64,000 nucleotides of DNA from Clostridium sp. Its GTDB lineage: Bacteria > Bacillota > Clostridia > Clostridiales > Clostridiaceae. Shown piece after piece: positions 44,828 to 61,252 of the stretch. Made by a program: the position numbers and the translations under genes. Numbering within the stretch: the first letter of the stretch is position 1; every line of letters begins with the position of its first letter. The notes beneath the pieces were generated by a model that was given only the letters and a program-made list of their open reading frames with translations, made no database searches and was not told the DNA's origin. The stretch lies in contig NZ_JAKVOI010000001.1 in the NCBI RefSeq assembly GCF_022482905.1, forward strand, positions 2,357,958 through 2,421,957. Reading direction: 5' to 3'.

Positions 44828-47233
44828 TTACAGAACCTGTTCTGTTCTTTCAATAATATCATCCTGCGTCTGCTTTGACAGTACATTGAAAAAGGCACTG
44901 TAACCTGCAACACGTACAATGAGATCCCTGTGATCCTCAGGATGTTTCTGTGCATCTACAAGAGTTTCCCTGGATACCACATTGTACTGCACGTGAAAAC
45001 CCTTCAGACGATCGAAGAAAGTTCTTATCAAATAGATCAATTTAAGTCTGGATTCCTCTTTTGACAGCATTTGAGGAGTAATTTTCTGATTCAGCAGTAC
45101 TCCACCTGTAATCCTGTCCGTGGATAATTTTGAGACTGACTTGAATACTGATGTAGGTCCGTTCTTATCCATTGCATGCGATGGTGAACATCCTTCAGCA
45201 AGTGGTTCACCAGCTTTTCTTCCATCAGGGGTTGCTGGAGTCGATGCTCCCTGTGGTACATTTGCAGAAATGGAAGACGTGCCTGCATAGTATACTCCTC
45301 CAATTGGTCCCCGTCCAAATCTGGTGTTTTTATACTTGCTTATTTCATCGATATATTTATCATATGCTTTTTTGAGGATAATATCTACATAATCATCATC
45401 ATTTCCATATTTAGGTGCATTATTTATTAGAATATTCTGTACTCTAATGTTATCTTCTCCTTCAAAATTATTTACAAGAGCATTCCACAGCTCTTCAGGC
45501 GTCAGAATCCTGTCTTCAAATACACACTTCTTGATAGCTGCAAGAGAATCTCCCAAATTGGCAATACCTACCTGAAGATCACTTATGAAATCATATACTG
45601 CTCCACCTTCCTTTATAGTAAGTCCTCTTTCAATGCAGTCCTCTGTCAAGGTCGAACAAAGTACATCTGCTGTAGTATTCTCCAGCACCGTATCTACACA
45701 ATTATCTATAATTACACTGTGCTTTGTGAATTCCTGAATTATCTTATCCCATGCTTTCATGACCTGATCGAAGGACATCATATTTTTAAAATGCCCTGTT
45801 CCATTACATACTTTAATCCCTGATTCCAGATCAACTCCGTCATTCAATGCAATCAAAAGGGATTTGGGGAAATTCAGGAAGCTCATGCCAGTGCAGCGAT
45901 AACCCCACTTTCCAGGTACGGCAACTTCTACACATCCAATTGCACTGTAATTGTAGGCATCTTTTTCGGATACACCTTTTTCTACAAATGAAGGAATTAT
46001 TATTTCATCATTGTTGAAAGCAGGCATTCCAAAACCAAGCCTGACAACCTCAATACACTGTTTCATGAAATCATCATCCAGTCCACTATGATAGCGTACC
46101 GTGAGATTAGGCTGAGGCAGTTTTGTCTGTGCAACACTTTTCAAAATCATGTAGCTCAGTGAGTTTACAGCATCTTTCTTATCTGGAGTCTGCCCTCCTA
46201 CAGTTACATTCTGGTACAGCGGACTACCTGCACTAAATCTTGTATGTGACCAGCTTCTTATCTTGTTTATTGTGAACGTTTTAAGCCATAGATTTACAAG
46301 CAGTTCACATGCTTCATCTTCTGAAATCAAACCTTTTTCAATATCTCTCTTATAGTATGGATAAAGATATTGATCCATCCTTCCATAAGATACTGAATGC
46401 CCGTTGGATTCTATCTGCAGGCAGAGATGAATCAGCCATATTGACTGCACTGCCTCCTTGAAGCTTTCTGCTGGTTGATATGGAACCTTATTCAAAATGT
46501 CTGACATTTCAAAGAGTTCCTTTTTCCTTCTCAAATTCACTTCACTCTCTGCCATTTCAAGTGCAAGATTTGCATAACGCTTTGCAAAATTTTTAACCGC
46601 ATCTACTACAATGAAAATAGCTTTGTAAAAATAGGATTTTCTCAAGTTTCTATAGTCTGTCAAGTCAAGATTATTTAGCTTGTCCTCGACTTTTTTCTTA
46701 TAATCCATCAGTCCAAGCCTCAGCACATTGCCGTAATTCACAGCTATGTGACCATCTCCTGACGTAATATTGCCTTCTGCCTTTATGATTCCAAGATCAT
46801 AAAAAATTCTGCTGTCTTCAGGCATGGCTGCAAGTCCTCTATCCTTCAGCGTATTGTGATACCAGAAACCCGACATATCCTTCAGTACCTTTTTATTTTT
46901 CTCCGTAATATAGAACCTGTCACCGGGTCTTTTTTCAAATTCATCAAGTTCCTCAACAACCCAGTCCATGGCATACTCAGGAAATATAGGTGCAGAACGG
47001 TTGGTTGACGCCTGGTTCCCTGCAATCAGCGTCTGCGGTTCTATGAATATACTCATATTTTCCAATATATTCTCCAGGCACAGTGCCCTTTTCAAAATCA
47101 TAGGCTTATCAGCATGTTTCCTGTAGCTTTGTGTCACAAGTACTGCCCTTTCAACACATACATTCGATCTGGCATTAAGCAGTTCTTCACGAAAATCCTT
47201 CATTCTGTCTGTTAGTTCTCCAAAATTACCCAT
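44828..47233 (-). CDS. pflF: Glycyl radical enzyme, YbiW/PflF-like; probable 1,5-anhydroglucitol-6-phosphate ring-opening lyase
   Basis: Cytoplasmic glycyl radical enzyme of 801 residues. The catalytic thiyl Cys is C434 in IGCVEVAVPGKWGYRCTGMS, with E436 as the dehydratase-type acid/base. The radical site is G777 in VRVAGYSAFF. True pyruvate formate-lyases have two adjacent cysteines, which are absent here, so a formate-lyase label would be wrong. Long stretches match E. coli YbiW as I recall it (IIKAEGNxTSGDxHLAVN-like region, QIESNGHSVSYGRMDQYLYP, GMPAFNNDEI). E. coli YbiW opens anhydroglucitol-6-phosphate to 1-deoxyfructose-6-phosphate. The start ATG at 47233 follows GGGAGGG at 8 nt. It lies 27 bp after its DeoR regulator and opposite its activase. 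Confidence 0.85.
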   Translation of the reverse strand: MGNFGELTDRMKDFREELLNARSNVCVERAVLVTQSYRKHADKPMILKRALCLENILENMSIFIEPQTLIAGNQASTNRSAPIFPEYAMDWVVEELDEFEKRPGDRFYITEKNKKVLKDMSGFWYHNTLKDRGLAAMPEDSRIFYDLGIIKAEGNITSGDGHIAVNYGNVLRLGLMDYKKKVEDKLNNLDLTDYRNLRKSYFYKAIFIVVDAVKNFAKRYANLALEMAESEVNLRRKKELFEMSDILNKVPYQPAESFKEAVQSIWLIHLCLQIESNGHSVSYGRMDQYLYPYYKRDIEKGLISEDEACELLVNLWLKTFTINKIRSWSHTRFSAGSPLYQNVTVGGQTPDKKDAVNSLSYMILKSVAQTKLPQPNLTVRYHSGLDDDFMKQCIEVVRLGFGMPAFNNDEIIIPSFVEKGVSEKDAYNYSAIGCVEVAVPGKWGYRCTGMSFLNFPKSLLIALNDGVDLESGIKVCNGTGHFKNMMSFDQVMKAWDKIIQEFTKHSVIIDNCVDTVLENTTADVLCSTLTEDCIERGLTIKEGGAVYDFISDLQVGIANLGDSLAAIKKCVFEDRILTPEELWNALVNNFEGEDNIRVQNILINNAPKYGNDDDYVDIILKKAYDKYIDEISKYKNTRFGRGPIGGVYYAGTSSISANVPQGASTPATPDGRKAGEPLAEGCSPSHAMDKNGPTSVFKSVSKLSTDRITGGVLLNQKITPQMLSKEESRLKLIYLIRTFFDRLKGFHVQYNVVSRETLVDAQKHPEDHRDLIVRVAGYSAFFNVLSKQTQDDIIERTEQVL

Positions 47234-47260
47234 AAACAACCCTCCCAAATTAATGGATAT

Positions 47261-48013
47261 TTATAAAATAGCTCTTAGAACATCTATTTTATATTCTTTC
47301 AAAAGTTCCAAAATATGCTGTGGAATTTTATTGTCTGTTATTACACAATCTACTTCCGCTGTATCAAACTGAACAACAACTCCCTGCTGAAAAAATTTTG
47401 AGGATTCGGTTAGTACAACTACCTTGTCTACATTTTGAGCCATGGTTTTTACTGTTTCTGTACGCATGAGATCCTTTCCTGTAAATCCGACTTTGGGATT
47501 ATATCCATCAGTTCCTACAAACAATTTATCTACAAAAAAGTTTTTTACACCCTCCCTGGCAAGCGGTCCCACCAGAACTTGTGACTCCATCTGATACTCC
47601 CCGCCCAGCAGTATAATTCTTGCCAGAGGAGCCTCTCTTACATGTGAAGCTATAAAAACAGAATTTGTAATTATGGTTATGTCTTTTTTATTGTAAGCAA
47701 GTTCCTCTGCAAGCAGTGCACAGCAGGAACCGGATTCAATCATAACTGTTTCTCCATCTGAGACAAGCTCTGATGCCAGTTCTGCTATTTTTTTCTTTGT
47801 ATCATAATTAACAGCCAGCCTGCTGTTGATGTCATCACTTGAGTTTATAACGGCATATCCATGCTTCCTGTGCAGCAGTCCCTTTTCCTCCAATATACTC
47901 AAGTCCTTGCGTATAGTCACCTGTGATACATTCAAAAGTTCTGACAACCTGCTGACCTCAATACATTTGTTGTCGGTCACTATTTTAAGGAGCTTTTTAT
48001 GTCTGTCAGTCAT
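47261..48013 (-). CDS. DeoR family transcriptional regulator (first)
   Basis: Repressor of 250 residues. The N-terminal HTH is CIEVSRLSELLNVSQVTIRKDLSILEEKG, and the DeoR sensor domain has the sugar-phosphate isomerase-like fold (ETVMIESGSCCALLAEEL, ITNSVFIASHV, LLGGEYQMESQVLVGP, KLFVGTDGYN). Effectors of the family are phosphorylated sugars. It is the first gene of the GRE operon and divergent from the activase gene, with two similar ATGT-N13-ACAT elements in the intergenic region. The ATG at 48013 lies 7 nt after GGGAGG; a TTG six bases upstream is too close to the site. Confidence 0.92.
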   Translation of the reverse strand: MTDRHKKLLKIVTDNKCIEVSRLSELLNVSQVTIRKDLSILEEKGLLHRKHGYAVINSSDDINSRLAVNYDTKKKIAELASELVSDGETVMIESGSCCALLAEELAYNKKDITIITNSVFIASHVREAPLARIILLGGEYQMESQVLVGPLAREGVKNFFVDKLFVGTDGYNPKVGFTGKDLMRTETVKTMAQNVDKVVVLTESSKFFQQGVVVQFDTAEVDCVITDNKIPQHILELLKEYKIDVLRAIL

Positions 48014-48122
48014 ATTCAATCCTCCCGTTTTATATTTTATATTGCCAATTATAACACAGGAGAACCTGCTAATACAAAATTTTAAATTTCATTCGTAAGT
48101 AAATTGTTTCTTTTATACTTAT

Positions 48123-48273: not shown

Positions 48274-49179
48274 ATGATAAAAGATATAAAGGCCTGTATT
48301 TTCAACATTCAAAAATACAGTATACACGATGGTCCGGGAATAAGAACCGTTGTATTCTTCAAGGGATGTCCTCTAAGATGCATATGGTGTTCCAATCCAG
48401 AATCGCAAAATAGGGAAATTGAAATATCCCATAATAGATCAAGCTGCATAAAGTGCTTGAAATGTATTCACTGTTGCAATAAAAACGCAATATATCTGGA
48501 AAATGATACTATAAAAATAGACAATAAAAAATGTGTTTCATGCTTTGATTGCATAAATATATGTCCTAAAAATGCGCTAAAAAAAGAAGGCTCCCATTTG
48601 ACTCTCGATTACGTATTTAAAGAAGTTCTAAAAGACAAAGTATTTTATGAGGAGTCAAATGGAGGCGTGACACTGTCTGGAGGGGAAGTACTGCTGCAGC
48701 ATGAATTCGCATCAGAACTCCTGAAGCTCCTCAGATCAGAAAACATACACACTGCAATTGAAACTGAAGGATATGCCCCAAACAAGATTTTTTCTAAATT
48801 TATAGACAATGTGGATTTGCTCTTGTTCGATATAAAACACTATGACAGGCAAAAACATTTTAAAGCTACGGCTGTGTACAACGATATAATTCTGGAGAAT
48901 CTTCAAACTGCCCTTAACAGGAAAAAGGATATCATCATACGTATTCCCGTTATACCTGGAATCAATTCGGATCTGGAAAATGCAGCAAATTTCTGTAACC
49001 TGTTTAGAACTCTGGGAGTATCCAGAATAAACCTGCTGCCCTTTCACCAGTTCGGCCAGAATAAATACGAAATGCTTGGCAGAAACTACAAATTAAAGGA
49101 TATCCCTCCCCTGCACGAAGAGGATTTGATGGAATACAAAAAAATATTCATCAGAAATGGTTTTGACTGCTGGTTTTAG
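48274..49179 (+). CDS. Glycyl-radical enzyme activating protein (radical SAM, with ferredoxin domain)
   Basis: Radical SAM activase of 301 residues that installs the glycyl radical on its partner GRE. The SAM [4Fe-4S] ligands are C32, C36 and C39 (GCPLRCIWC). An inserted bacterial ferredoxin domain carries two more clusters (C58/C61/C64/C68 and C87/C90/C93/C97). The SAM-binding motif is GGVTLSGGE, and IHDGPGIRTVVFFKG is conserved in the family. It is transcribed divergently from the YbiW-like GRE operon and is presumably its partner (PflE/YbiY-like). SD GAAAGGAG precedes the ATG at 48274. Confidence 0.9.
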   Translation: MIKDIKACIFNIQKYSIHDGPGIRTVVFFKGCPLRCIWCSNPESQNREIEISHNRSSCIKCLKCIHCCNKNAIYLENDTIKIDNKKCVSCFDCINICPKNALKKEGSHLTLDYVFKEVLKDKVFYEESNGGVTLSGGEVLLQHEFASELLKLLRSENIHTAIETEGYAPNKIFSKFIDNVDLLLFDIKHYDRQKHFKATAVYNDIILENLQTALNRKKDIIIRIPVIPGINSDLENAANFCNLFRTLGVSRINLLPFHQFGQNKYEMLGRNYKLKDIPPLHEEDLMEYKKIFIRNGFDCWF

Positions 49180-49202: not shown

Positions 49203-51743
49203 TTAATTCTTTATGAGAAAATTGACTATATAACAGATTTCATTATCTGTTAATTCAACAGAATATTTATTAAACAGAAATGCAATATGCTCATTTACTA
49301 CTTCATAAATCTTTTTATATTTGTTCTTTAATTCATTCTTATTTGGATATTCAATAAAAGCTTCCCCCTTTTCCAAATGGCTTATTGTAAATGCCAGATG
49401 AAGTACAACTCCTATGATCGTTTCATCTTTCAAATTAATGGATAGTATTGATGATATTTTATTTAAAGTATATACTATGTCCTTATATAGGACGTCCCCG
49501 TCAAGATTATCTATATTTTCTTTTAGAATAAGATTCATTTTAAGAAAAGTTGTCTTTGTATCAATAAGCTCCTGAAGCTCGTTTACAGCTCTCATGCTTA
49601 TTACATCATACATGCTATACTGCTTTATATCAACATCAATATGAAAAGGTGAAACAATAAATAAAATTTCTCTTTCTCTCTCCATTTTTTCTATACATTG
49701 GGCAAAGTACCTTTCATTCAAACAGTTCAGAGGTACAACTTCGAAAATATCATTATCAAATTTAAGATTCTTGTTGATAAAACTTTTAAGAGCAACAGAG
49801 CCTCCCTCTCCTGTTAAACATGCTGTTATAATAGCTATTTTCTTTTTATCATTTTTAATATTTTTATTATACTTGATATTGTTTACATATGAATTTACAG
49901 AAACCACTTCTTTATGAATTTCATCCAGTGAAAACCCCAGCAGTGCTTTTCTTGCAGCTTCAAGAACATGCAGGGTTGAAACAAGTGACATGACTTTTAC
50001 CGGTACATTAAATTCCTTTTCTATTATTTCACCAAAGGTTGTAAATGATCCCATATCAACGAGTAAAAAGTATCCACTGGAGCAAAGATTCGTTTTCACT
50101 ATCTTCCTCAATTTGTCTAATATTTTTAAAGGACTGGTTTCTATTGGAGCATCGACTCCAATTACATATTCCTCACCCAAAAGCTTGTTTGAAACATCTG
50201 CCATGGAACTTGCCGTTGTTTCACCATGTGCTATCAGTATAATTTTTACCTTTTCCGCAAATTTACGATTGTAATTATCATCTGGAGTCAGGAATATAGT
50301 CAGATATCCTGCTTCATCTTCGGGTATTGAATGATGAATGAACTTTTCTATTATTTTCTTTATTTCAAGTGATATCTGAAATTCCCTTGGATATAATTTT
50401 TTTATTTTATCTAATTGCGAATTGACTATAGCTTTTCCCGTAGTCATTCTCTTTATCAAATTATCTATATGAAGCGCAAGTGCCGTATACATATTGCCTG
50501 TCAAATTTATTTTAAAAGAGCTGGCTACATAATAAACTACTTCATCAACACAGTTCAGTACATCCTTTCCCAGGATATTGAGCAAATTTTTTTTGTTGAT
50601 TTCTTCCGAAATCCCATTTATATGCTTTTCAAAGTATTTTGTAATATCCTTTTCAAGAATATTTTCAATGTTGATGCTTGAAATACCCCTTGACCTCAGT
50701 ACCTCCAGCTTTTGCTCAATAATATCATAAATACTATTATCATCATAATTATTTGTATAGGATAAGCTTTCGCTGGAAGCCGTAAATTTAAAAAATTCTA
50801 TATCATCATTTATAAATTTATTCCACATGACTCTATGTTCTTTCTCTCTGTATAGTCCTTCTTTAATATGACCAGGTAAAGAACTGCTGAAAATTCTTAC
50901 ATCTGATTTTATATCCGTCAGAAATTCTGAATAAGCTTTTGCACAAACAAGCTGTATGTCACTTTTAAGCTGTCCGATGTTATTTGGACAATTATATGAT
51001 AGAAATGCCCTGATAGTATTCAATGATACATATATATTTTTATTTAAACGTATACTTTCGTATTTAAAAAAACTCTTTATGAGAAAAAGCCGCTCTTCAA
51101 GAGTTCTTTCCCTGAGCGAGGGAATATGGATAATCATTGGAATTCTCCTTGTAAAAGTCTTCAATAATGCCGATTCCGGATTTTCTGTAGTAGCTGAAAT
51201 AATAAAAACATCTGATTTTCTAATTTCACTGTCCCCTACACGTCTAAAAGTGCCCGTATCAAAAAATGTAAAGAGGGCTTCCTGACCCTCCGGAGGCAAT
51301 CGGTGAACTTCATCCATGAAAAGTATCCCGCCGTCTGCTTTTTCAATCAAGCCGACTTTATTTTCTTCAGCACCAGTATAGGATCCCTTTTTGACTCCAA
51401 AAAGTTGGGCGGTAAGCAGTTGAGGATTGTTACTGTAGTCTGCACAATTAAACACTATAAATGGAGATTCCTTATCTTTCACTCCAATCTCAACTGAATA
51501 ATCGTGCATCAGAGATGCAAACATGGATTTTCCAACTCCTGTCTCTCCCAGGATCAAACAATTCATTCCATTTGGAGGATATAATACAGCTGCCCTTAAT
51601 TGTTCAACAGCCTGCTTTAAACTTATATTGTTTTTTACAAATTCGGATAATTTTGATTCCCCGAATTTCATATTCTTCAATTGTGAGGCATAAAACAAAA
51701 CCGGACGCCCGGAGGATTTGTAAACCTTTCCTTCTCTGAACAA
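49203..51743 (-). CDS. LevR-type sigma-54 activator, main body (DNA-binding domain cut off by upstream TAG)
   Basis: Sigma-54-dependent, PTS-controlled activator. The surviving 846-codon frame contains an AAA+ domain with Walker A GETGVGKS (66-73), the sigma-54 contact loop GSYTGA (120-125) and Walker B LFMDEVH (141-147). A PRD, a mannose-type EIIA-like domain (ILIAHGETTAS, phosphorylatable His), an EIIB-Gat-like segment (ACLTGEGG) and a second PRD (VVLHLAF) follow. The frame runs upstream through a clear HTH to an ATG at 51869, but codon 13 is TAG. The TTG at 51743 has no convincing ribosome site, so expression is doubtful. Its evident target is the divergent PTS operon with a sigma-54 promoter. 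Confidence 0.85.
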   Translation of the reverse strand: MFREGKVYKSSGRPVLFYASQLKNMKFGESKLSEFVKNNISLKQAVEQLRAAVLYPPNGMNCLILGETGVGKSMFASLMHDYSVEIGVKDKESPFIVFNCADYSNNPQLLTAQLFGVKKGSYTGAEENKVGLIEKADGGILFMDEVHRLPPEGQEALFTFFDTGTFRRVGDSEIRKSDVFIISATTENPESALLKTFTRRIPMIIHIPSLRERTLEERLFLIKSFFKYESIRLNKNIYVSLNTIRAFLSYNCPNNIGQLKSDIQLVCAKAYSEFLTDIKSDVRIFSSSLPGHIKEGLYREKEHRVMWNKFINDDIEFFKFTASSESLSYTNNYDDNSIYDIIEQKLEVLRSRGISSINIENILEKDITKYFEKHINGISEEINKKNLLNILGKDVLNCVDEVVYYVASSFKINLTGNMYTALALHIDNLIKRMTTGKAIVNSQLDKIKKLYPREFQISLEIKKIIEKFIHHSIPEDEAGYLTIFLTPDDNYNRKFAEKVKIILIAHGETTASSMADVSNKLLGEEYVIGVDAPIETSPLKILDKLRKIVKTNLCSSGYFLLVDMGSFTTFGEIIEKEFNVPVKVMSLVSTLHVLEAARKALLGFSLDEIHKEVVSVNSYVNNIKYNKNIKNDKKKIAIITACLTGEGGSVALKSFINKNLKFDNDIFEVVPLNCLNERYFAQCIEKMEREREILFIVSPFHIDVDIKQYSMYDVISMRAVNELQELIDTKTTFLKMNLILKENIDNLDGDVLYKDIVYTLNKISSILSINLKDETIIGVVLHLAFTISHLEKGEAFIEYPNKNELKNKYKKIYEVVNEHIAFLFNKYSVELTDNEICYIVNFLIKN

Positions 51744-52052: not shown

Positions 52053-52068
52053 TGGCATATATTTTGCT
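52053..52068 (+). promoter_or_regulatory. Sigma-54 (-24/-12) promoter of the PTS operon
   Basis: TGGCATATATTTTGCT with GG at 52054-52055 and GC at 52066-52067, the exact 10-nt spacing required. Transcription would start near 52079, 31 nt before the IIA start codon. Confidence 0.88.
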
Positions 52069-52430: not shown

Positions 52431-52470
52431 GATTATAAATAAAAAATTTAAAACACGGAGGTATGATAAA

Positions 52471-52782: not shown

Positions 52783-52788
52783 TCACCC

Positions 52789-52959: not shown

Positions 52960-54297
52960 ATGGAACAATCACCAAAATCAAGCGAAAAAATAATATCAGC
53001 TATAGTAAAATTTATTAACCTGAAAGGAATTATTGCATTAAAAGACGGTATGTTAAGCATACTGCCTCTAACAATTATCGGATCGATATTCCTGGTAATC
53101 GGGCAAATACCATCTGCAAGATTCAATAATTGGATGGCAGGTATATTTGGTGCTGACTGGACAGAACCGTTTATGCAAGTCTATGGTGGTACCTTTGAAA
53201 TAATGGGACTGGTTGCTTGCTTCTCAATAGCCTATAATTACGCTAAGAACGAAGGATTTGAGCCATTGCCTGCAGGTATATTATCAGTTGTATCTTTCAT
53301 AATTACAATCAGTTCATATGTTATCTCTGACAAAGGGGAGAAGGTAACAGACGTTATTTCAAAAGGCTGGATAGGTGGCAAGGGTATGGTTGCAGCTATC
53401 ATCATCGGACTAGTTGTTGGAGCCACTTATTCATGGTTTCTAAAAAAGAAGATAGTAATCAAACTACCGGATAGTGTTCCGGAGGGTGTGGCCAATCAAT
53501 TCACCGCCCTGATACCAGCTGCAGTTATAATGATTGGTTCTATGTTAATCTATATTCTATTTAAAGCTGCCGCAAACAAGACTTTTATAGAATGGATTTA
53601 TACCGTATTGCAGATTCCTTTGCAGGGATTAACAGATTCCTTACCTGGAGTTATAGGAATCGCATTCTTCATTTCTTTCATCTGGTGGTTTGGTGTACAT
53701 GGTCAGTCAATTGTCAATGGTGTAGTTACCTCGTTATTGACGGCAAACGCCATGGCAAATCAGCAGCTTTTTCAGAAAACCCACAGTTTAACTGTTTCAG
53801 GTGGAGCTCACATTGTAACCCAGCAATTTCTTGACAACTTTATAATACTTTCAGGATCTGGAATAACCTTTGGTCTTGTAATTGCAATGCTCTTTGCTGC
53901 AAAATCGGAACAATACAGGAGTCTGGGCAAAATCGCCATATTTCCTACCATTTTCAACATCAATGAACCTGTTACCTTCGGATTTCCAATAGTATTAAAT
54001 CCTATTATGTTCATTCCATTCTTCGCAACACCAGTTGTAGCCAGCCTGTTGGTTTACGTATCCATAGCAACGGGATTTGTTCACCCTTTCTCAGGAATAA
54101 TGCTGCCTTGGAGTACACCTGCAATTATATCAGGATTGCTGGTTGGAGGTTGGAGAGCTGCTCTGCTGCAGATAGTAATTCTAATAACATCGACATTAAT
54201 ATATTTCCCATTCTTTAAAAAACAGGATTCTATAACATACAGAAAAGAACAGGAGTTAGCCAAGCAGAATTCTAAAAATGGAATAGAACTAGAATAA
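52960..54297 (+). CDS. PTS lactose/cellobiose-family IIC permease
   Basis: Membrane permease of 445 residues with about 9-10 hydrophobic segments that binds and translocates the sugar during phosphorylation. Family features are LKDGMLSILPLTIIGSIFLV at the N-terminus, ISFIWWFGVHGQSIVNGV in the middle and the conserved NINEPVTFGFPIVLNP motif (substrate-proximal Glu). The C-terminus is cytoplasmic and charged. The substrate is not given by sequence. The flanking GRE cluster points to 1,5-anhydrohexitols rather than cellobiose. SD AAGGAGG precedes the ATG. Confidence 0.92.
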   Translation: MEQSPKSSEKIISAIVKFINLKGIIALKDGMLSILPLTIIGSIFLVIGQIPSARFNNWMAGIFGADWTEPFMQVYGGTFEIMGLVACFSIAYNYAKNEGFEPLPAGILSVVSFIITISSYVISDKGEKVTDVISKGWIGGKGMVAAIIIGLVVGATYSWFLKKKIVIKLPDSVPEGVANQFTALIPAAVIMIGSMLIYILFKAAANKTFIEWIYTVLQIPLQGLTDSLPGVIGIAFFISFIWWFGVHGQSIVNGVVTSLLTANAMANQQLFQKTHSLTVSGGAHIVTQQFLDNFIILSGSGITFGLVIAMLFAAKSEQYRSLGKIAIFPTIFNINEPVTFGFPIVLNPIMFIPFFATPVVASLLVYVSIATGFVHPFSGIMLPWSTPAIISGLLVGGWRAALLQIVILITSTLIYFPFFKKQDSITYRKEQELAKQNSKNGIELE

Positions 54298-54346: not shown

Positions 54347-55432
54347 TTATCTATAATCTACTTCTATAGTACGTTTTTCCCTGTCAGATCTATAGCATGT
54401 ATCAATTACTGTTTCTGAATCCAATGAATCTTTAAATGTTGCTATATTGCCGCTATCCCGTCCATTGAATATACTGTCTGCAAAATTGACTATGCATGCT
54501 GTATGGCAGTCCTGATGAAATCCAAGAGACTGCCGTTCTCCAGGATAATAACCTGATACTGGAGCATCCTGAATAGAAGATATCCTCTCCACCCTGTTTG
54601 CTTTGTAATCATAAAATTCCATGAAATAGGGACTATCCGAACTCATCTTTATAGAACCTTTCGTACCATACAGAGTATAGGTGGTAGGTTCATCCTCCTG
54701 TGCAAAAATTCTTGATACTTCAAGAGTTCCCCTTGCTCCATTCTCCATGTTCATCCTGCAGAAGGCTATCTCATCCACATCAGTTCTGTCCTTGAAAAAC
54801 ACTCTCGTATCACAATTCACTTCTCTTATCCTGCCAAGTGTAAAATGGATCATATCAATAAGATGTACTCCAAGATCCACAAGTGCTCCACCCCCTGAAG
54901 ACTGTTTTGTCCTCCAGCTTCCTTTTTTTAAAGGATTAAGATAACTTTTATGGTACAGCTTCACCTTGAAGTCGATTATATCTCCAATGATCTGTCTTTG
55001 TATGGCAGTTTTTATAAGCCTGACAGCAGGCATGTATCTGTATATTAGGGCAACTGCGTTTTTCAGCTTGTTCTTTCTGACAAGCTTCTCCATTTCAATC
55101 GAGTCTTCCATGCAAGAGGAAAGAGGCTTCTCGCAATATACGGATTTTCCTGCTTCCACAGCTTTTTTCAAAATTTCAAGGTGTGAATTGTTTGGAGTAC
55201 ATATGTCTATAAAATCGATATTCCTGTCACTCAGCACCTCATCCATATTTATAAAGTTTTCCACTCTTCCTACTGTAAAATCCATAGGTCTTCTCGTTAC
55301 AATACTCTTTAAATTCAAGCTGTACTCAAGAGGGAAATTCATATTTCCCATATATGCTCCTAGTGCATGAGTCCTTGCAATTCCCCCAAATCCAGCTATA
55401 GCGAAATTGACACTGTTCGACAATCTATCCAT
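54347..55432 (-). CDS. Gfo/Idh/MocA family oxidoreductase
   Basis: NAD(P)-dependent sugar or polyol oxidoreductase of 361 residues. The Rossmann motif is GFGGIART (G14-x-G16), the family EKP motif is E101-K102-P103 in VYCEKPL, and the substrate-side catalytic region is GGGALVDLGVHLIDM. It is the last gene of the PflD-like operon, 24 bp after the epimerase homologue. The known 1,5-anhydrofructose reductase, which yields 1,5-anhydromannitol, belongs to this family. A role making the PflD substrate from anhydrofructose is therefore attractive but unproven; myo-inositol or gluconate-type substrates remain possible. Confidence 0.88.
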   Translation of the reverse strand: MDRLSNSVNFAIAGFGGIARTHALGAYMGNMNFPLEYSLNLKSIVTRRPMDFTVGRVENFINMDEVLSDRNIDFIDICTPNNSHLEILKKAVEAGKSVYCEKPLSSCMEDSIEMEKLVRKNKLKNAVALIYRYMPAVRLIKTAIQRQIIGDIIDFKVKLYHKSYLNPLKKGSWRTKQSSGGGALVDLGVHLIDMIHFTLGRIREVNCDTRVFFKDRTDVDEIAFCRMNMENGARGTLEVSRIFAQEDEPTTYTLYGTKGSIKMSSDSPYFMEFYDYKANRVERISSIQDAPVSGYYPGERQSLGFHQDCHTACIVNFADSIFNGRDSGNIATFKDSLDSETVIDTCYRSDREKRTIEVDYR

Positions 55433-55456: not shown

Positions 55457-56149
55457 CTATTTATATTTTCGTGCGACACAGAGCATTCTGGAACATGATT
55501 CTTTTACAGTACGGTCTTTTAAAAAGAGGCCGGAAGTGCCTCCCGTCATCATATCCGCACCTGCCCTTACAACTGAAGGAATCGTATTTTCATTAATATT
55601 CCCGTCCGCCTGGATACCGGTTTTCAGACCTGCTCTATTTAGCATTCTCCTCATCTGCTCTATATGAACTGCTGCATCCTCCTGCATTTTTTGTCCTGGA
55701 AATCCCGGATTTACTGTAAGCTTCAGTATCCAGGCCGCTTCTCCTGCAAGAGATATAAAATCGTCACCCGGAGCAGTTGAAGCCTTGTATGCAAGAACAG
55801 GTTCAGCACCATAACGGCGAATCATATCAAATATTTTTTCAAAATCCCCTACGGCCTCATAGTGGACTGCTATATAATCCGCTCCAGCTGAGGCATAGGC
55901 TTTTATAAATTTTTCAGGCTCATATACCGCCAGATGAACCTCAACAGGTAGATTTGTCTCCCTTCTCATGCTCCGAAGCGTTGGTTCCCCAAGTATGAAA
56001 CAGCTGTTGAATTTCCCGTCCACTACGTCAAAATGATAAAAAGACACTTCAGACTGTTCAACTTCAAGCATGCTCTTTTTCAGATTGCAGAGATCCATAC
56101 AGGAGACAGATGCGGATATATTGATATCATTTTTTATTACTTTAATCAT
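55457..56149 (-). CDS. Ribulose-phosphate 3-epimerase family protein
   Basis: TIM-barrel epimerase homologue of 230 residues. RPE active-site residues are kept: H39 and D41 in FYHFDVVDGKF, H72 in EVHLAV, and D182. The usual VDGGI is altered to QADGNI, and the MDG Met is Val. LKLTVNPGFPGQKM is the phosphate-loop region. The divergence and its position between an FSA aldolase and a Gfo/Idh gene argue against housekeeping pentose-phosphate work. It may act on a ketohexose or deoxyketose 6-phosphate, as the AlsE-type epimerases do. SD GGAGAGG precedes the ATG. Confidence 0.85.
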   Translation of the reverse strand: MIKVIKNDINISASVSCMDLCNLKKSMLEVEQSEVSFYHFDVVDGKFNSCFILGEPTLRSMRRETNLPVEVHLAVYEPEKFIKAYASAGADYIAVHYEAVGDFEKIFDMIRRYGAEPVLAYKASTAPGDDFISLAGEAAWILKLTVNPGFPGQKMQEDAAVHIEQMRRMLNRAGLKTGIQADGNINENTIPSVVRAGADMMTGGTSGLFLKDRTVKESCSRMLCVARKYK

Positions 56150-56169: not shown

Positions 56170-56850
56170 TTAAAGATCCGAAATGGAAAATCCTTTTCCA
56201 AATACACTTTCCCAGTCGGAAGTAAAATCAGTTACCGCTTTTTCTATGGAAGGCATCTTGAAAGCATCGTGCAAAATCTGAGGTGCTACGGTTGCAACCT
56301 GTGCTCCGCATGAAAATGCATCCATGACCTGACCTACATTCTTGAAGCTTGCTGCAAGTATTTTGGCGGAATAATTATACTTTTCTATCATATCCGCAAT
56401 CATTTTTATAGTGGCACGAGGATCAATATCCATATTCTCCATCCTGTTGAAATACGGTGCAAGATAATCCGCCCCTGCCTCCAGTGCCAGAAGCGCCTGA
56501 ACTTTTGTATATATGGCAGTTGCAGTAATTCCCACTCCTTCGGATTTGAGCTGTCTCATTGCCTTCAATCCTTCTTCTGTTACCGGAATTTTTATATAAA
56601 CACTGTCGTCTACCTTCTCAAGCACTGTCTTTGCATCCTTGACTATTCCTTCAAAATCCCTGGCTACTGCCTGAATGTGAATACTTTTTTCAAAACCGAG
56701 TATACTGCGTATTTCTTTGAAATGATTGAAAAAATCGATCTTTCCCACTTTTTTTATAATGCTTGGATTACTTGTAATCCCGGTTATAGGGAAAATATCC
56801 TTATACTTTTTTATATCTTCGATATTTGCTGTGTCAAACATAAATTCCAT
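56170..56850 (-). CDS. Fructose-6-phosphate aldolase/transaldolase-like (FSA) protein
   Basis: Class I Schiff-base aldolase of 226 residues in the FSA subgroup of small transaldolases. The Schiff-base lysine is K87 (VYIKIPVTEEGL), Y133 (LAPYFNR) matches the FSA catalytic Tyr, and TSNPSII and LAASFKNVGQV are conserved. FSA enzymes take dihydroxyacetone or hydroxyacetone as donor. In E. coli FsaA/FsaB split 1-deoxyfructose-6-phosphate, the product of YbiW and PflD, to glyceraldehyde-3-phosphate and hydroxyacetone. Its place in the PflD-like operon fits this exactly. SD AGGAGAG precedes the ATG at 56850. Confidence 0.9.
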   Translation of the reverse strand: MEFMFDTANIEDIKKYKDIFPITGITSNPSIIKKVGKIDFFNHFKEIRSILGFEKSIHIQAVARDFEGIVKDAKTVLEKVDDSVYIKIPVTEEGLKAMRQLKSEGVGITATAIYTKVQALLALEAGADYLAPYFNRMENMDIDPRATIKMIADMIEKYNYSAKILAASFKNVGQVMDAFSCGAQVATVAPQILHDAFKMPSIEKAVTDFTSDWESVFGKGFSISDL

Positions 56851-56896: not shown

Positions 56897-57697
56897 TTAC
56901 ATACCGCCAATCAATACATCTATTCCATGCTCTTCAATTCTTTTTTTTATTCCATGAACAAGCCCGGTATCGGGAGGTTCCATATCTTTCATGGTATATT
57001 CCCTGTTCAAATATTCGTACTTTCTACTTCCGTATTGATGGAACGGAAGTATATGGACTTCTTTCAAGCCAAGTTCTTCAACAAAATCAATTATTGCATC
57101 TATATTCTTTTTATCCATGTTGTAGCCCGGAATCAGTGGTATACGTGGAATTACCTTCCTATTATGCTCTACCAGAAGTCTCATGTTGCTTTTCACCAAA
57201 TCTATGTCAATACCTATAATATCCCTGGCCTTATACTTATCCATTATTTTGAGATCAAACAATATCAAATCAAGATATTTCGACATTTCCATCAAGACAC
57301 TGCTTTTCCCATAACCGGATGTTTCAATGGCTGTATTTATCGAAAGCTTTTTGAGACATCTGAGAAGTTCAATTGCAAATCTACCTTGCGAAAGTACTTC
57401 GCCACCCGAGAGAGTGACCCCTCCACCGGATGTGTTGTAAAATATACTGTCTTTTTCGACTTCCTCAAGCACTTCAGTAAGTGTCATATACTTTCCAAAA
57501 ATCCTGCCTTTGTTTGCTCCAAATCTTCCTATATTTGCAGTTCCATCAGTTCTTTCTATCTCAAAAGACTGTGACTCCGGATTACAACACCACGGACAGT
57601 GAAGAGAACATCCTTTAAAAAATATAACCGTCCTTATACCGTCCCCATCGTGAAGAGAATACCTTTGAATATTGAATATCAATGCTTTCACAAACAA
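56897..57697 (-). CDS. Glycyl-radical enzyme activating protein without ferredoxin domain
   Basis: Radical SAM activase of 266 residues. Cluster ligands are C30, C34 and C37 (GCSLHCPWC), with IFNIQRYSLHDGDGIRTV before them and GGGVTLSGGEVLSQG as SAM site. The segment that in most non-PFL activases, including the other one in this window, holds two extra [4Fe-4S] clusters is reduced to about 30 residues without the Cys pattern. It sits 12 bp after the PflD-like GRE, so it is its likely partner. The start is a TTG at 57697 (GGA 5 nt upstream), or the GTG at 57691; both are uncertain. Confidence 0.88.
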   Translation of the reverse strand: MFVKALIFNIQRYSLHDGDGIRTVIFFKGCSLHCPWCCNPESQSFEIERTDGTANIGRFGANKGRIFGKYMTLTEVLEEVEKDSIFYNTSGGGVTLSGGEVLSQGRFAIELLRCLKKLSINTAIETSGYGKSSVLMEMSKYLDLILFDLKIMDKYKARDIIGIDIDLVKSNMRLLVEHNRKVIPRIPLIPGYNMDKKNIDAIIDFVEELGLKEVHILPFHQYGSRKYEYLNREYTMKDMEPPDTGLVHGIKKRIEEHGIDVLIGGM

Positions 57698-57709
57698 TCA
57701 CATCCATTC

Positions 57710-60007
57710 CTATAATGCGTGCTCGGTCCTTGCGATTATATCATCCTGAATTTTTTTGTTCAATTCTATAAAGAATGCACTGTAACCTGCAACTCTTACT
57801 ACAAGTCCCTTATAATTTTCAGGATTTTTCTGGGCATCCATCAAAGTTTCCCTTGACATTATATTGAATTGTATATGCTGTATTTTAAGCTTCATGAAGG
57901 ACAGCAAAAAGTCTCCAAATTTTTTAATTCCACCCTCTCCCGCCAGTGCTTTCGGAGAAAATTTTACATTCAAGAGACTGCCGTTCGTTGTAAGATAGTT
58001 GTCAAGCTTGCTTACACTTTTCAGCACGGCAGTAGGTCCAAGAAGATCTCTTCCAACCATGGGCGAAAGTCCTCCGTCAGCAAGCTGGCTGTAGGCTTTT
58101 CTTCCGTCCGGAGTCGCACCTACCGCTTCCCCAAGCGGAATATGGGCCGACACCGTATATGCTCCCGGTATGAATTTTCCACCTCTTGGATTTGAATACT
58201 TCTCAAGCTCCTCTGCATAATACCTCAATATATCCGAGGATATGAAATCCACCTCGTCATTGTCATTTCCATATTTATCGTAATTATTTATGAGCACCTC
58301 CCTCAATTCAGGATAATCCTTTCCTTCAAAGTCGGCATCCAGAGCCTCCACAAGTTCGCTGAAACTCAATTTTTTTTCTTCAAATACAATTTTCTTAAGT
58401 GCATAGAGCGAATCACTCAGATTTGCCTCTCCTATACCCTGAACACCTGAAAAGTTATATCTTGCACCACCTTCAGTTATATCCTTTCCCTTTTCTATGC
58501 AATTGTCTATGAGTGACGAAAGCAGCGGAACAGGTGCAAATTCCCTGTGTCCTATATCTACTATATTTGACCCCTCTGCCACAAGCTTTACATAATGGAC
58601 AATTTTTGACTTTATATCATCTATTATGGAATCAAAAGTTATATTTTCTTTTTTCCTGTTTTCTCTCAGAGAGATTTCCATTATTTTTAAAAAATTGAAC
58701 AAGGCTATGTCATGGAGACCGTAAGTACTTCCAGGTATGGACAGTTCAACGCATCCGACAACAGCATAGTCCCTTGCATCTTCGAGTCTTACCCCTCTGT
58801 TTAAAAATCCAGGTACTATAACTTCATCATTGAATATCTGCGGAATTCCCGTCCCCAGTCTTATAGTTTCACATGTCAGGTTCAGGAACCTTCTTGGGAT
58901 GAGTTCATTGAGCCTTACTGCCAGATTAGGCTGCGGGAGCTTTATATCATGGTAACTTTCCAGGCACAGATACGAAAGTTCATTGACGGCAGATCTTCCA
59001 TTGTAGGTAAGTCCCCCGAGTGCTATTGTATATCCTGTCGGAAATCCTGCAAAATACTTTGCACTGTTTTCACTCCTAACAAGCACAACGTCATTGGTCT
59101 TTATCCACAGGCATTCCAGAAGTTCTTTCAAAAACTCTTTAGGAACACCTCTCTCCACATCTTTTTTGTAGAAATCATACATGTACTGATCAAATCGTCC
59201 TAAAGAAAGCGAACTTGCATTGGATTCATACTGTGCCGCAATGCTTATATACCACAATAGCTGACAGGCCTCATAAAAGCTGCTGGGCTTTTCGCTGGAA
59301 ATTCTTTTTGATATACGTGCTGCTTCCAGAAATTCCTTTTTTCTCTGCGTATCCTTTTCCTGAAAGGCACTTTTTTGTGCAAGTTCTGCATACCTCAGAA
59401 TATGTCTCTGTACAGCTTTGAGTACTATGAATGCTGCCTTATAAAAATCATTGCTATCGTTTTCGTGAATTTTTTTGTCAACTTCGTCTATAATGTATTG
59501 AAGTCCATTCCGGAGCACAAACGGAAAATCCATTATGATGTGTCCCTGTCCCTTGTCCGTCTGATTGAGTGCTATGACATTTTTGTCTACAGCTTCTCTT
59601 ATGGATCCACTTATTCTTGAATTTATAAAATCTTTCATGGACTTGCCCTTCCAGTAGGGGTACAATTGTTCTCTGTATACTTTTTTATCTTTTTCACCTA
59701 TATAAAATCGATCCTGGGGCCTTGAATGGATGGTATCAAGTTCATCATAAATCCAGTAAGGATCCATTTCCGGTGAAACAATTCCGCTTCTCGGCTTTAT
59801 GGTCCTGTTTCCAAGAATAAGTTCTCCAGGTCTGATTGATATTTCAACATTGTCCAGTATATGGGCAGAAGCTTTTGCCCTTCTTATAACGGTAGGCTCT
59901 CCTTCTGTTTTCTCATAGCTTTTCGTATACAAAAGCGCCCTTTCCAAAGAAATTTCTCTTTTCTGACTGAAAAGCTGTTCTTTTAGATCTTCTATTCTCT
60001 GATTCAT
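57710..60007 (-). CDS. pflD: Glycyl radical enzyme, PflD-like; probable 1,5-anhydromannitol-6-phosphate ring-opening lyase
   Basis: Glycyl radical enzyme of 765 residues. The thiyl Cys is C419 in VVGCVELSIPGSTYGLHDIA, with E421 beside it, and the radical glycine is G741 in VVRVAGYSAFF. It follows E. coli PflD as I recall it almost throughout (EISLERALLYTKSYEKTEGE, INQTDKGQGHI-type region ALNQTDKGQGHIIMDFP, YESNASSLSLGRFDQYM). E. coli PflD acts on 1,5-anhydromannitol-6-phosphate to give 1-deoxyfructose-6-phosphate. It has no adjacent Cys-Cys pair, so it is not a pyruvate formate-lyase. GAGGTG precedes the ATG at 60007. First gene of a five-gene operon: activase, FSA aldolase, epimerase and Gfo/Idh follow. 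Confidence 0.87.
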   Translation of the reverse strand: MNQRIEDLKEQLFSQKREISLERALLYTKSYEKTEGEPTVIRRAKASAHILDNVEISIRPGELILGNRTIKPRSGIVSPEMDPYWIYDELDTIHSRPQDRFYIGEKDKKVYREQLYPYWKGKSMKDFINSRISGSIREAVDKNVIALNQTDKGQGHIIMDFPFVLRNGLQYIIDEVDKKIHENDSNDFYKAAFIVLKAVQRHILRYAELAQKSAFQEKDTQRKKEFLEAARISKRISSEKPSSFYEACQLLWYISIAAQYESNASSLSLGRFDQYMYDFYKKDVERGVPKEFLKELLECLWIKTNDVVLVRSENSAKYFAGFPTGYTIALGGLTYNGRSAVNELSYLCLESYHDIKLPQPNLAVRLNELIPRRFLNLTCETIRLGTGIPQIFNDEVIVPGFLNRGVRLEDARDYAVVGCVELSIPGSTYGLHDIALFNFLKIMEISLRENRKKENITFDSIIDDIKSKIVHYVKLVAEGSNIVDIGHREFAPVPLLSSLIDNCIEKGKDITEGGARYNFSGVQGIGEANLSDSLYALKKIVFEEKKLSFSELVEALDADFEGKDYPELREVLINNYDKYGNDNDEVDFISSDILRYYAEELEKYSNPRGGKFIPGAYTVSAHIPLGEAVGATPDGRKAYSQLADGGLSPMVGRDLLGPTAVLKSVSKLDNYLTTNGSLLNVKFSPKALAGEGGIKKFGDFLLSFMKLKIQHIQFNIMSRETLMDAQKNPENYKGLVVRVAGYSAFFIELNKKIQDDIIARTEHAL

Positions 60008-60118: not shown

Positions 60119-60181
60119 ATTGTTAAAATGGTATATAATAATTATTGATGTACAATAGTATCTCTCAAAAGGATGATCAAT

Positions 60182-60946
60182 ATGTTTATTGAAGAAAGAC
60201 ACAATGAAATACTCAGCATTTTAAATACCGAAGGCAAGGTCGTAGTAAATGACCTGAGTCAAAAGTTCAATGTTACCAAGGACTGCATCAGAAAAGACCT
60301 TAAAACACTGGAAAATAAAAATTTACTGAAAAGAACATACGGTGGCGCTGTATCCATACGAAAATCAGCCCATTACAAAAAAATAGATGCAAGGAAAGAT
60401 TTCAATGTGGAATCCAAATCCACAATTGCGAAGAAGTGTTTTGACATTATAGAAGATGGAGAAACTATATTTCTGGATATATCCACTACAAATATACTGC
60501 TTGCAAAGCTTATTTCAAAATCCGACAAAAAATTGACTGTAGTAACAAATATGCTTGATATAATGTCAATTATAAACAATGAAAAAAACTGCATCAAGAT
60601 TGTTTGTCCCGGAGGTATAATCTGTAAAGATCTAAATGGATTCACAGGATCCATGACCATAGAAAATATATCAAATTATAGATTTTCCAAAGCCTTTATC
60701 GGAAGCTGCGGAGTAAATATATTTGAAAAAAGCGTAACTACCTTTGATTTTGAAGACGGCAACACAAAAAAAGCAATAATAAGAAACAGTAAAATCGTTT
60801 ACCTCGTAATGGAAAACAGAAAATTCTACTTTGACGGCAGCTTCAAGTTCGCTTCCCTCAAAGATATAAATGCAATAATAACAGAAGGCCTTCCAGACAA
60901 AAACATAGCCGACGTACTGGAAAAAACAAATACTAAACTCATTTGA
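60182..60946 (+). CDS. DeoR family transcriptional regulator (second)
   Basis: Regulator of 254 residues starting MFIEERHNEILSILNTEGKV, with HTH VVVNDLSQKFNVTKDCIRKDLKTLENKN and the DeoR effector domain (ETIFLDISTTNILLAKL, VVTNMLDIMSI, CPGGIICKDLNGFTG). I use the ATG at 60182, 8 nt after AAGGA; the frame opens nine bases earlier at an ATG that overlaps that site. It is divergent from the PflD-like operon and separate in sequence from the first DeoR, so each GRE arm has its own regulator. Confidence 0.92.
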   Translation: MFIEERHNEILSILNTEGKVVVNDLSQKFNVTKDCIRKDLKTLENKNLLKRTYGGAVSIRKSAHYKKIDARKDFNVESKSTIAKKCFDIIEDGETIFLDISTTNILLAKLISKSDKKLTVVTNMLDIMSIINNEKNCIKIVCPGGIICKDLNGFTGSMTIENISNYRFSKAFIGSCGVNIFEKSVTTFDFEDGNTKKAIIRNSKIVYLVMENRKFYFDGSFKFASLKDINAIITEGLPDKNIADVLEKTNTKLI

Positions 60947-61252
60947 TTACAGGCATGACTTTACTTTTTTTAAAATTTCATCACCTCTTCTAACAATTTC
61001 GTTGCTTGAAAATCTGAATATAATTTTGCCCTTGAATCTATCCATGCCTTTTATTTCCACATCATTTGTCAGTATAACAGCATCTGAGTCCTTTACATCC
61101 TTAAGTTTTATGCTGTTTTCAATACCCATTGCTCCCTGTGTTTCCACTTTTATATCTATACCATTTGCCCCGGCATATCTCTCCAATACTTCTGCAGCTA
61201 TATAAGTATGTGCAACCCCTGTCACACAGGCAGTTACCGCCACTATTTTCAT
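60947..61252 (-). CDS. PTS fructose-type IIB component, orphan
   Basis: Small IIB protein of 101 residues like E. coli FrwB/FrwD or the IIB domain of FruA. The phosphorylated Cys is C9 in VAVTACVTGVAHTYIAAEVL, and KVETQGAMGIENS is conserved. No fructose-type IIC or separate IIA lies in the window. The adjacent BglG-type regulator has its own EIIA domain. The stop codon abuts that of the second DeoR gene. It may be a regulatory phosphocarrier signalling to the divergent regulator, or a remnant of a lost Frw-like PTS. Confidence 0.88.
   Translation of the reverse strand: MKIVAVTACVTGVAHTYIAAEVLERYAGANGIDIKVETQGAMGIENSIKLKDVKDSDAVILTNDVEIKGMDRFKGKIIFRFSSNEIVRRGDEILKKVKSCL

Follow-up and report, generated by a model that had tools for sequence, protein, structure and literature searches.

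The stretch of Clostridium sp. DNA analysed here (the window, 64,000 nucleotides) carries two oxygen-sensitive glycyl radical enzymes (GREs) between positions 44828 and 61252, where the named genes are open frames in the ORF list at the coordinates given below. The earlier note had described GREs with C434/G777 and C419/G741, both with a GCVE motif, and the frames together with Pfam PFL-like and Gly_radical matches agree. It had also given each GRE an activase and a DeoR regulator, and had added an FSA-type aldolase, an epimerase homologue, a Gfo/Idh oxidoreductase and a IIA-IIB-IIC PTS of the lactose/cellobiose type (Lac-type); Pfam and NCBIfam matches confirm all of these. Beyond that description we find a sigma-54/PRD activator (49203-51743), a lone FrwB/FrwD-like IIB (60947-61252) and a BglG-type regulator (61337-63370), and the locus continues past the window end with PHP-family, GatZ-like, FrwB, FrwC and IIA genes. 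A plasmid megablast with the island returned no match. The features are as follows.

44828..47248, minus strand: YbiW-type GRE, probable 1,5-anhydroglucitol-6-phosphate (AG6P) lyase; 52% to E. coli YbiW, clade 99/99
47261..48019, minus strand: DeoR-family regulator of the YbiW arm; Pfam DeoRC and HTH_DeoR, homologue at 20/20 fetched clade-A loci
48274..49179, plus strand: radical-SAM GRE activase of the YbiW arm; TIGR02494 over cut-off, at 20/20 fetched clade-A loci
49203..51743, minus strand: sigma-54-dependent PRD activator (DagR/LevR type); N-terminal HTH interrupted
52053..52068, plus strand: candidate sigma-54 -24/-12 promoter, 41 bases upstream of the Lac-type IIA gene
52110..52430, plus strand: PTS IIA, lactose/cellobiose type; PF02255
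52471..52782, plus strand: PTS IIB, lactose/cellobiose type; PF02302
52960..54297, plus strand: PTS IIC, lactose/cellobiose type; PF02378, and TIGR00410 over cut-off
54347..55432, minus strand: Gfo/Idh/MocA oxidoreductase, end gene of the PflD-arm row; Pfam, NCBIfam and PDB matches
55457..56149, minus strand: ribulose-phosphate/allulose-6-phosphate 3-epimerase homologue; PF00834, 138 bits
56170..56850, minus strand: FSA-type aldolase; NF009299 over cut-off, FsaA residues aligned
56897..57697, minus strand: PflC-like radical-SAM activase, PflD arm; 44% identity to E. coli PflC, TIGR02494 over cut-off
57710..60007, minus strand: PflD-type GRE, probable 1,5-anhydromannitol-6-phosphate (AM6P) lyase; 63% to E. 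coli PflD, NF007437 over cut-off
60173..60946, plus strand: DeoR-family regulator of the PflD arm; homologue at 12/17 other PflD genomes
60947..61252, minus strand: lone fructose-type PTS IIB (FrwB/FrwD-like); 52% to FrwB, NF007783 129.8 bits, below the 135 cut-off
61337..63370, plus strand: BglG/MtlR-type regulator with PRD, IIB-like and IIA domains; homologue at PflD loci L007, L009, L011, L123 and L148
63412..64000, minus strand: PHP-family (HisJ-like) gene, truncated at the end of the window; adjoins an outside block of GatZ-like, FrwB, FrwC and IIA genes (L162, 4689-7968)

The PflD-type GRE (C419 in GCVE, G741 in RVAGY) shares 63% identity with E. coli PflD and matches NCBIfam equivalog NF007437 over residues 1-765 of 765, with 1321 bits against a cut-off of 1109. 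The model is titled formate C-acetyltransferase; we take it to be the PflD model, which fits the identity. In the YbiW-type GRE, Cys434 and Gly777 are counted from the ATG at 47233, probably the true start. This enzyme shares 52% identity with E. coli YbiW and groups with it in one clade (support 99/99), with PflD and a sister clade (clade B) outside and E. coli YbiW on a long branch. An active-site comparison with the E. coli enzymes, proposed in the earlier note, was run at motif level and supports both assignments, with identical residues at 144 of 169 positions (85%) in the YbiW-type GRE and 137 of 164 in the PflD-type GRE. Across the 92 motif columns that differ between E. coli YbiW and PflD, the YbiW-type enzyme carries the YbiW residue at 69 and the PflD residue at 7, and the PflD-type enzyme the PflD residue at 71 and the YbiW residue at 5. 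We conclude that the PflD-type GRE is a clear PflD orthologue, with AM6P lyase activity predicted, and that the YbiW-type GRE is a YbiW orthologue and predicted AG6P lyase, its 52% identity leaving room for a shifted substrate.

Among 206 genomes of the family, 31 encode a clade-A YbiW, 24 a PflD and 6 both. The earlier note had called for a survey of genomes for the same gene set. Two-arm islands do recur, in 2 of the 205 other genomes searched (G147, locus L113, and G182, locus L123); co-occurrence of the two arms across the 206 genomes does not exceed chance (Fisher P 0.13), and the Lac-type PTS is matched in neither island. Like the window, both islands keep their two GRE arms within 20 kb of each other, with a single main-clade YbiW-linked FSA. 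They differ in the genes between the arms (read by eye), and a Gfo/Idh gene is present in the G182 stretch and was not found in the G147 stretch. The PflD operon of Clostridium sp. cel8 (L010) resembles the PflD arm in its PflD (84%), activase (73%), FSA (79%), Gfo/Idh (76%) and adjoining galactitol-type genes. It differs in that no YbiW-type match reached the threshold applied, and in that its PTS is of the mannose type, with a LevR-type regulator, in place of the Lac-type PTS.

Neighbourhoods were fetched for 20 of 30 other clade-A, 8 of 12 clade-B and 13 of 23 other PflD genomes, and the PflD counts over 17 genomes combine these 13 with L010 (G010) and with L007, L009 and L011 from other families. 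The family searches scored up to 4 (YbiW) or 5 (PflD) candidates per genome, so matches per genome are "at least" values and a second one could have been overlooked. The scan of genome contigs gave 19 distinct loci; five long PflD-like loci (L006, L007, L009, L010 and L011) entered the neighbourhood or tree counts, from which L008 (PflD 65%, 3.6 kb) and 13 more distant loci were left out. L006 and L141 are one and the same contig, and L006 was therefore kept out of both trees and the genome counts. L131 (G175), whose YbiW-type gene is split by a break, is absent from the GRE alignment and tree (frame below 700 aa), yet stands in the neighbourhood counts. Three other GREs of the genome are in the GRE alignment as partial frames, and the FSA at L122 (172 aa) fell below the FSA-tree length filter.

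In the FSA-type aldolase of the window, Lys87, Tyr133, Gln60 and Asp6 align with FsaA Lys85, Tyr131, Gln59 and Asp6, the Schiff-base lysine and the FSA-type Tyr131, Gln59 and Asp6. The protein scores 331.7 with NF009299 (cut-off 214) and 191 with TIGR00875, below that model's cut-off of 245.95. The FSAs of the window, Clostridium sp. cel8, G147 and G182 form one clade of 14 (100/99) with 10 YbiW-linked FSAs; because two YbiW-linked FSAs lie outside this main clade, FSA kinship is an unclean marker of the arm. In each of the three two-arm islands the stretch inspected shows a single FSA, which belongs to the main YbiW-linked clade, as a common product of the two GREs would predict.

Passages of PMC12441222, citing Ma et al. 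2024, state that E. coli YbiW and PflD convert AG6P and AM6P, respectively, to 1-deoxyfructose-6-phosphate, and the GRE steps given in the earlier note agree with these passages. Assignment of the locus to this published pathway is well supported at the level of sequence. PTS import of two rare sugars that resemble glucose and mannose would yield AG6P and AM6P, which the YbiW-type and PflD-type GREs, respectively, would open to 1-deoxyfructose-6-phosphate, each GRE served by its own activase and its own DeoR regulator. By analogy with related GREs, and in view of the product, the Cys radical would abstract the hydrogen at C2, with breakage of the C1-O5 bond. The single FSA-type aldolase would then cleave this product into glyceraldehyde-3-phosphate and hydroxyacetone. 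Reduction of the latter to 1,2-propanediol would be the task of a GldA orthologue (58%) encoded in another part of the genome (G000 514732). Import for the PflD arm would fall to the Frw-type PTS that lies shortly beyond the window end. The Lac-type PTS, which separates the two arms, may import for the YbiW arm, or it may be a relic.

The earlier note had considered the E. coli genes scattered. The two arms are indeed far apart there, but we reject scattering of the genes as such, as each locus is clustered: pflD lies in the island gldA-fsaB-ptsA-frwC-frwB-pflD-pflC-frwD, with PTS, fsaB and gldA, and ybiW adjoins its activase and fsaA. The Clostridium locus is like the pflD island in its GRE (63%), activase (44%), FSA-type aldolase, nearby Frw-type PTS and GldA orthologue in the genome. 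In contrast to that island, its aldolase belongs to a different FSA subtype (34-35% to FsaA/FsaB), its GldA is encoded away from the locus, and it has additional Gfo/Idh, epimerase and GatZ-like genes. With ybiW-ybiY-fsaA it shares the GRE (52%) with activase and the close-by FSA aldolase, whereas the activase is only 37% identical to YbiY, a DeoR gene stands before the GRE and the aldolase belongs to the PflD gene row.

The NCBIfam family models matching both GREs carry the name formate C-acetyltransferase, and automatic annotation would accordingly label both as formate acetyltransferases. The PflD-type GRE, however, scores 1113 bits to the solved PflD structure against 136 to PFL (1h16), and the YbiW-type GRE 904 bits to solved YbiW against 165. 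These matches to solved structures settle the GRE fold from sequence. Both enzymes carry GCVE, whereas the CC motif typical of PFL occurs in another GRE of this genome, 762 aa long. On the alignment scores and motifs we reject PFL function, to which we assign practically no probability. The YbiW-type GRE might instead act on another anhydrohexitol 6-phosphate or a related polyol phosphate rather than AG6P. Its 52% identity would allow this, and the branch does diversify: clade B, at 50-52% to the window enzyme and often beside FSA genes too, has different pocket motifs, on which ground we did not equate it with YbiW. Clade B, however, keeps only 67-71% of the E. coli YbiW motif positions, against 85% in the window enzyme, and we consider another substrate fairly unlikely. 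That two independent loci are merely adjacent, without a shared pathway, would accord with the non-significant genome-wide co-occurrence and with the single arm found in most carrier genomes. Against this, 3 of the 6 double-carrier genomes have both intact GREs within 20 kb, with one main-clade YbiW-linked FSA each, and we regard mere adjacency as improbable. The island is not a chance collection, since all 20 fetched clade-A loci have an activase and a DeoR gene, and 15 of them an FSA gene as well.

Transport is less settled. In the earlier note, the Lac-type PTS was taken to give the island a phosphorylating uptake system of its own. The Lac-type IIC passes TIGR00410, the broader lactose/cellobiose subfamily, and stays under the cut-off of TIGR00359, the cellobiose IIC equivalog (357.5 vs 434.45). 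Among seven inspected relatives of this IIC (54-61%), the stretch fetched includes a GH1 or GH4 gene in six (five Pfam-checked, L226 by eye), IIA, IIB and IIC together in five and a like regulator in four. The window's Lac-type IIA, IIB and IIC have no match at 46 other GRE loci, including the two of E. coli. One in-frame stop upstream of the activator frame cuts the N-terminal HTH, while relatives in L220 and L224 (891 and 886 aa) have uninterrupted N-termini. The PTS thus looks by kinship like a beta-glucoside-type system, and these data favour an ordinary system of that type, or its remnant, lying with its sigma-54 regulator between arms that use Frw-type or general sugar PTSs. On the other side, GH1 (PF00232) and GH4 (PF02056) gave no match at E <= 0.001 in the single-contig genome, with E. 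coli and B. subtilis controls positive, so the usual intracellular partner is missing. The candidate sigma-54 promoter is also kept before the Lac-type IIA gene and is the only exact pattern match in the 64 kb window, though with one mismatch allowed there is no overall enrichment (12 matches vs 11.2 expected). We judge the ordinary-system reading close to an even call, tipping slightly against, and the Lac-type PTS doubtful as an anhydro-sugar importer. A better-supported candidate, and the most likely importer of the PflD arm, is the Frw-type PTS beyond the window end (IIC NF007787 500.2 vs cut-off 426, 54% to E. coli FrwC; IIB NF007783 156.1 vs 135, 61% to FrwB), a type found beside PflD in E. 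coli and in 6 of 15 other genomes.

We know of no role for a Gfo/Idh protein or an epimerase in the published anhydro-sugar pathway. The epimerase homologue scores 138 bits with PF00834, against 274 for the other genome copy, and falls below the cut-offs of NF007266 (allulose-6-phosphate 3-epimerase, 126.9 vs 271) and TIGR01163 (ribulose-phosphate epimerase, 143.2 vs 212.6). PflD is present in 12 of 18 genomes carrying the Gfo/Idh gene, compared with 24 of 206 overall. The best NCBIfam match of the Gfo/Idh protein is levoglucosan dehydrogenase, a model that it matches at 138.8 bits, below the equivalog cut-off of 650. We also considered 1,5-anhydrofructose reductase, and the PDB match (2glx, 15th in the list, E 4.6e-15) is weak. 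A role as an anhydro-sugar(-6-phosphate) oxidoreductase is possible. In a speculative extension, to which as a whole we give little credence, the island would funnel several anhydrohexitol stereoisomers: Gfo/Idh would swap a ring-carbon configuration, for example AM6P to AG6P via 1,5-anhydrofructose-6-phosphate, the 3-epimerase-like and GatZ-like (possible 4-epimerase) proteins would turn other 1-deoxyketohexose-6-phosphates into 1-deoxyfructose-6-phosphate, and the beta-glucoside-type PTS, its glycosidase lost, would have been recruited for anhydrosugar import.

Orthology, motif residues, gene linkage and the one aldolase in the stretch are observed, and from them we infer substrates, flux, regulation and transport; with reasonable confidence, we regard a two-armed anhydroglycolysis locus as the likely reading. 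A literature search on "anhydroglycolysis" found no paper, and the passage of the glycolysis review PMC12965863 consulted does not contain the bacterial pathway. The chemistry itself has been described in E. coli; the new variations are the gene arrangement and some extra genes. Two GREs with a common aldolase lead to the prediction that both make the same product, and the Gfo/Idh gene, recurrent beside pflD in Bacillota, is a directly testable extra step. Passages of PMC12441222 describe 1,5-anhydroglucitol as a polyol of food and human blood, and its 6-phosphate as toxic to neutrophils in two human diseases, which is why its bacterial consumers matter. The locus provides a compact system in which to test the pathway beyond the enterobacteria.

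The island is real, and the genes named for it in the earlier note are present as open frames where that note placed them. Its functional reading is mostly right: the assignments of the two glycyl radical enzymes (GREs) are supported by sequence, whereas the assignment of the PTS and the description of the E. coli genes as scattered require correction. The features discussed below are:

44828..47248, YbiW-type GRE
49203..51743, minus strand, sigma-54 regulator
52110..54297, Lac-type PTS
54347..55432, minus strand, Gfo/Idh oxidoreductase
55457..56149, minus strand, epimerase homologue
56170..56850, minus strand, FSA-type aldolase (FSA)
57710..60007, minus strand, PflD-type GRE

The 57710..60007 product shares 63% identity with E. 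coli PflD, scores 1321 bits against NCBIfam NF007437 (cut-off 1109) and can be aligned from end to end with the solved PflD chain 8yjo. The 44828..47248 product shares 52% identity with E. coli YbiW and aligns at full length with the solved YbiW chains 8id7 and 8yjn, as well as the similar chain 6xs4. Its start is probably the ATG at 47233, with which the C434/G777 numbering agrees. In a maximum likelihood tree of 51 GREs, all 19 PflD-type proteins form a single group (100/100), and the window YbiW together with 19 same-family relatives (clade A) groups with E. coli YbiW (99/99); eight further proteins (clade B) fall outside that group. E. coli YbiW is a long branch, and motifs were therefore used alongside the tree. 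Ten conserved stretches, selected in the light of GRE structures as lying around the active-site region, were compared, with E. coli YbiW supplying the reference strings. Of 169 motif positions, the window YbiW is identical to E. coli YbiW at 144 and to PflD at 82, while the window PflD matches E. coli PflD at 137/164 and YbiW at 76/169. At the 92 columns that differ between the E. coli enzymes, the window YbiW reads as YbiW in 69 and as PflD in 7, and the window PflD as PflD in 71 and as YbiW in 5. Clade A retains 80–86% of YbiW motif positions and clade B 67–71%. The earlier note had made its reading depend on the substrate pocket; at the sequence level, as distinct from a comparison of ligand-bound structures, both enzymes keep the YbiW/PflD-type motifs.

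PflD, its activase, FSA, the epimerase homologue and Gfo/Idh lie on the minus strand with intergenic gaps of 12–46 bases, and this order and spacing suggest one five-gene operon divergent from a DeoR gene. The layout of the YbiW arm suggests a DeoR-YbiW pair with the activase divergent from it. Known arrangements are more compact than the earlier note held, since E. coli ybiW-ybiY-fsaA are adjacent and gldA-fsaB-ptsA-frwC-frwB-pflD-pflC-frwD form one island including its own PTS; only the two arms are far apart. A 2025 review (PMC12441222), citing Ma et al. (2024), describes the GRE steps of the pathway, in which YbiW and PflD convert AG6P and AM6P to 1-deoxyfructose-6-phosphate. The present genome encodes a GldA orthologue (58%) outside the island, at 514.7 kb.

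A survey of 206 genomes of the same family (YbiW-type E ≤ 1e-220, PflD-type E ≤ 1e-260; at most 4 YbiW and 5 PflD candidates scored per genome) found YbiW-type matches in 43, comprising 31 of clade A (67–100%) and 12 of clade B (50–52%), and PflD-type matches in 24. Clade A and PflD occur together in six genomes, no more than chance (Fisher P 0.13), and clade B and PflD in 6 of 12, above chance (P 0.0008), both uncorrected for kinship. With up to four YbiW candidates scored per genome, none of the 206 showed clades A and B together. Of the six genomes with clade A and PflD, three have the arms within 20 kb of each other, namely the present one, G147 and G182, and a fourth (G084) has them some 50 kb apart. 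Two-arm islands are thus uncommon, although this one is not the only example. A seventh genome, G175, carries both GRE genes at two places, PflD-type (L215) and YbiW-type (L131), each interrupted by a frame break. At the eight clade B loci fetched from the 12 genomes (L132–L139), the GRE's own activase adjoins, an FSA-type aldolase is present at five, and the pocket motifs differ from those of YbiW; this sister clade of YbiW perhaps acts on a third substrate. A YbiW-type gene (64%) on an Enterococcus gilvus megaplasmid (L229) lies near annotated alpha-glucosidase, alpha-galactosidase and mannose-type PTS genes.

An FSA gene was found at 15 of the 20 clade A loci fetched and in stretches from 14 of 17 other PflD genomes. 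In the FSA tree, PflD-linked and YbiW-linked aldolases are mostly, not wholly, separate: YbiW-linked FSAs of two genomes (G161, G037) cluster with one clade B-linked FSA, and the remaining four clade B FSAs with PflD-linked ones. Despite its place in the PflD gene row, the window FSA groups with the Clostridium sp. cel8 enzyme among YbiW-linked FSAs (98/97); in this clade the G147 FSA branches first (100/98), and the G182 FSA lies inside it. Each of the three two-arm islands shows one FSA in the stretch covered (window 42–64 kb plus L162, the stretch running 19.5 kb outward from inside the PflD gene; L113 of G147; L123 of G182), which fits a common product of both arms. The cel8 FSA lies beside PflD with no YbiW arm, which suggests that an ancestor of cel8 carried both.

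Gfo/Idh orthologues (E ≤ 1e-70) occur in 18 of 206 genomes, and PflD is present in 12 of these carriers; across all 206 it is present in 24 (Fisher P 4e-9, with no correction for kinship). The two are close together in eight carriers, counting G175 with its broken pflD. Two counts speak against a tight bond: five carriers lack both an intact pflD and the broken one of G175, and Gfo/Idh was seen in stretches of only 6 of 17 other PflD genomes. Short PflD-like remnants adjoin Gfo/Idh in G089 (L208, ~6702–6853) and in G090 (L210, ~9004–9155), which would fit the loss of a pflD copy at each place; an intact pflD is present elsewhere in G089, and G090, with the remnant only, is among the five. Levoglucosan dehydrogenase is among the best relatives of Gfo/Idh, as is, with a weak match, 1,5-anhydrofructose reductase, and a fair guess is a sugar-ring oxidoreductase acting on an anhydrosugar or its phosphate. 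The epimerase homologue (138 bits) is a second copy, the stronger one (274 bits) lying elsewhere; of the other GRE loci fetched, a single one (L148, 33%) has a homologue of it. An RmlD-like SDR gene recurs at nine PflD loci in eight genomes (L007, L009, L011, L141, L145, L146, L148, L150; one Pfam-checked), and an HbpS-like gene at four (L007, L011, L123, L148).

The Lac/Cel-type PTS, proposed earlier as the importer, is the weakest part of the model. Its IIC scores above the lactose/cellobiose subfamily model and below the cellobiose equivalog. Among seven IIC relatives inspected (54–61%; taken from the top three genomes by score plus four more, of 37 other genomes listed), a GH1 or GH4 gene is in the fetched stretch of six (all except L223; five Pfam-checked, L226 by eye), IIA, IIB and IIC are together in five, and a like regulator is in four. 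The present genome yielded no GH1 or GH4 gene, although the controls from E. coli and B. subtilis were detected in both searches; phospho-beta-glucosidase, the usual partner, therefore seems absent. The window IIA, IIB and IIC have no match at 46 other GRE loci, including both E. coli loci. An exact sigma-54 consensus, the sole one in the 64 kb, lies 41 bases 5' of the IIA gene; with one mismatch the consensus is no commoner (12 matches) than in shuffles (11.2). The sigma-54 activator of this PTS, missing from the earlier gene list, has a single in-frame stop in its N-terminal helix-turn-helix (51744–51869), and its long frame begins at a TTG 3' of that stop; relatives at two fetched loci (L220, L224) have 891 and 886 residues with the start intact. 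The Lac-type PTS has either been recruited for an anhydrosugar or is a stranded remnant.

A better importer candidate for the PflD arm is the set of FrwB, FrwC and IIA homologues at 2423.5–2425.5 kb, 1.6–3.5 kb past the window end; FrwC is near PflD in E. coli too. Near PflD in 15 other genomes (stretches of 15–22 kb), FrwC was found in six, a mannose-type PTS in two and none in seven; the queries used found no PTS close to the YbiW arm at 18 of 20 fetched clade A loci. A distant GatZ/KbaZ-like protein (PF08013, 60 bits), of a family with a proposed 4-epimerase role, follows the Frw genes, and its one relative in 58 loci scanned (71%) adjoins the G175 PflD genes. Next to the island is a further gene set, identified mostly by eye:

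L162 8242..14404, galactitol/tagatose-type set: kinase, class II aldolase, two RpiB/LacAB-like, DeoR and GatC/GatB/GatA-like genes

In Clostridium sp. cel8 (L010), relatives (75–89%) of five of these genes adjoin the PflD operon.

The pathway itself was already published in 2024, and Ma et al. reportedly cover its FSA and GldA steps. The novelty of the clostridial gene context is relative to the literature searched, and Ma et al. may show part of it. As far as could be checked, the new elements are the aldolase that the two arms share in such islands, the recurrence of Gfo/Idh, the clade B variant, the corrected reading of the PTS and the stretch of the island beyond the window.
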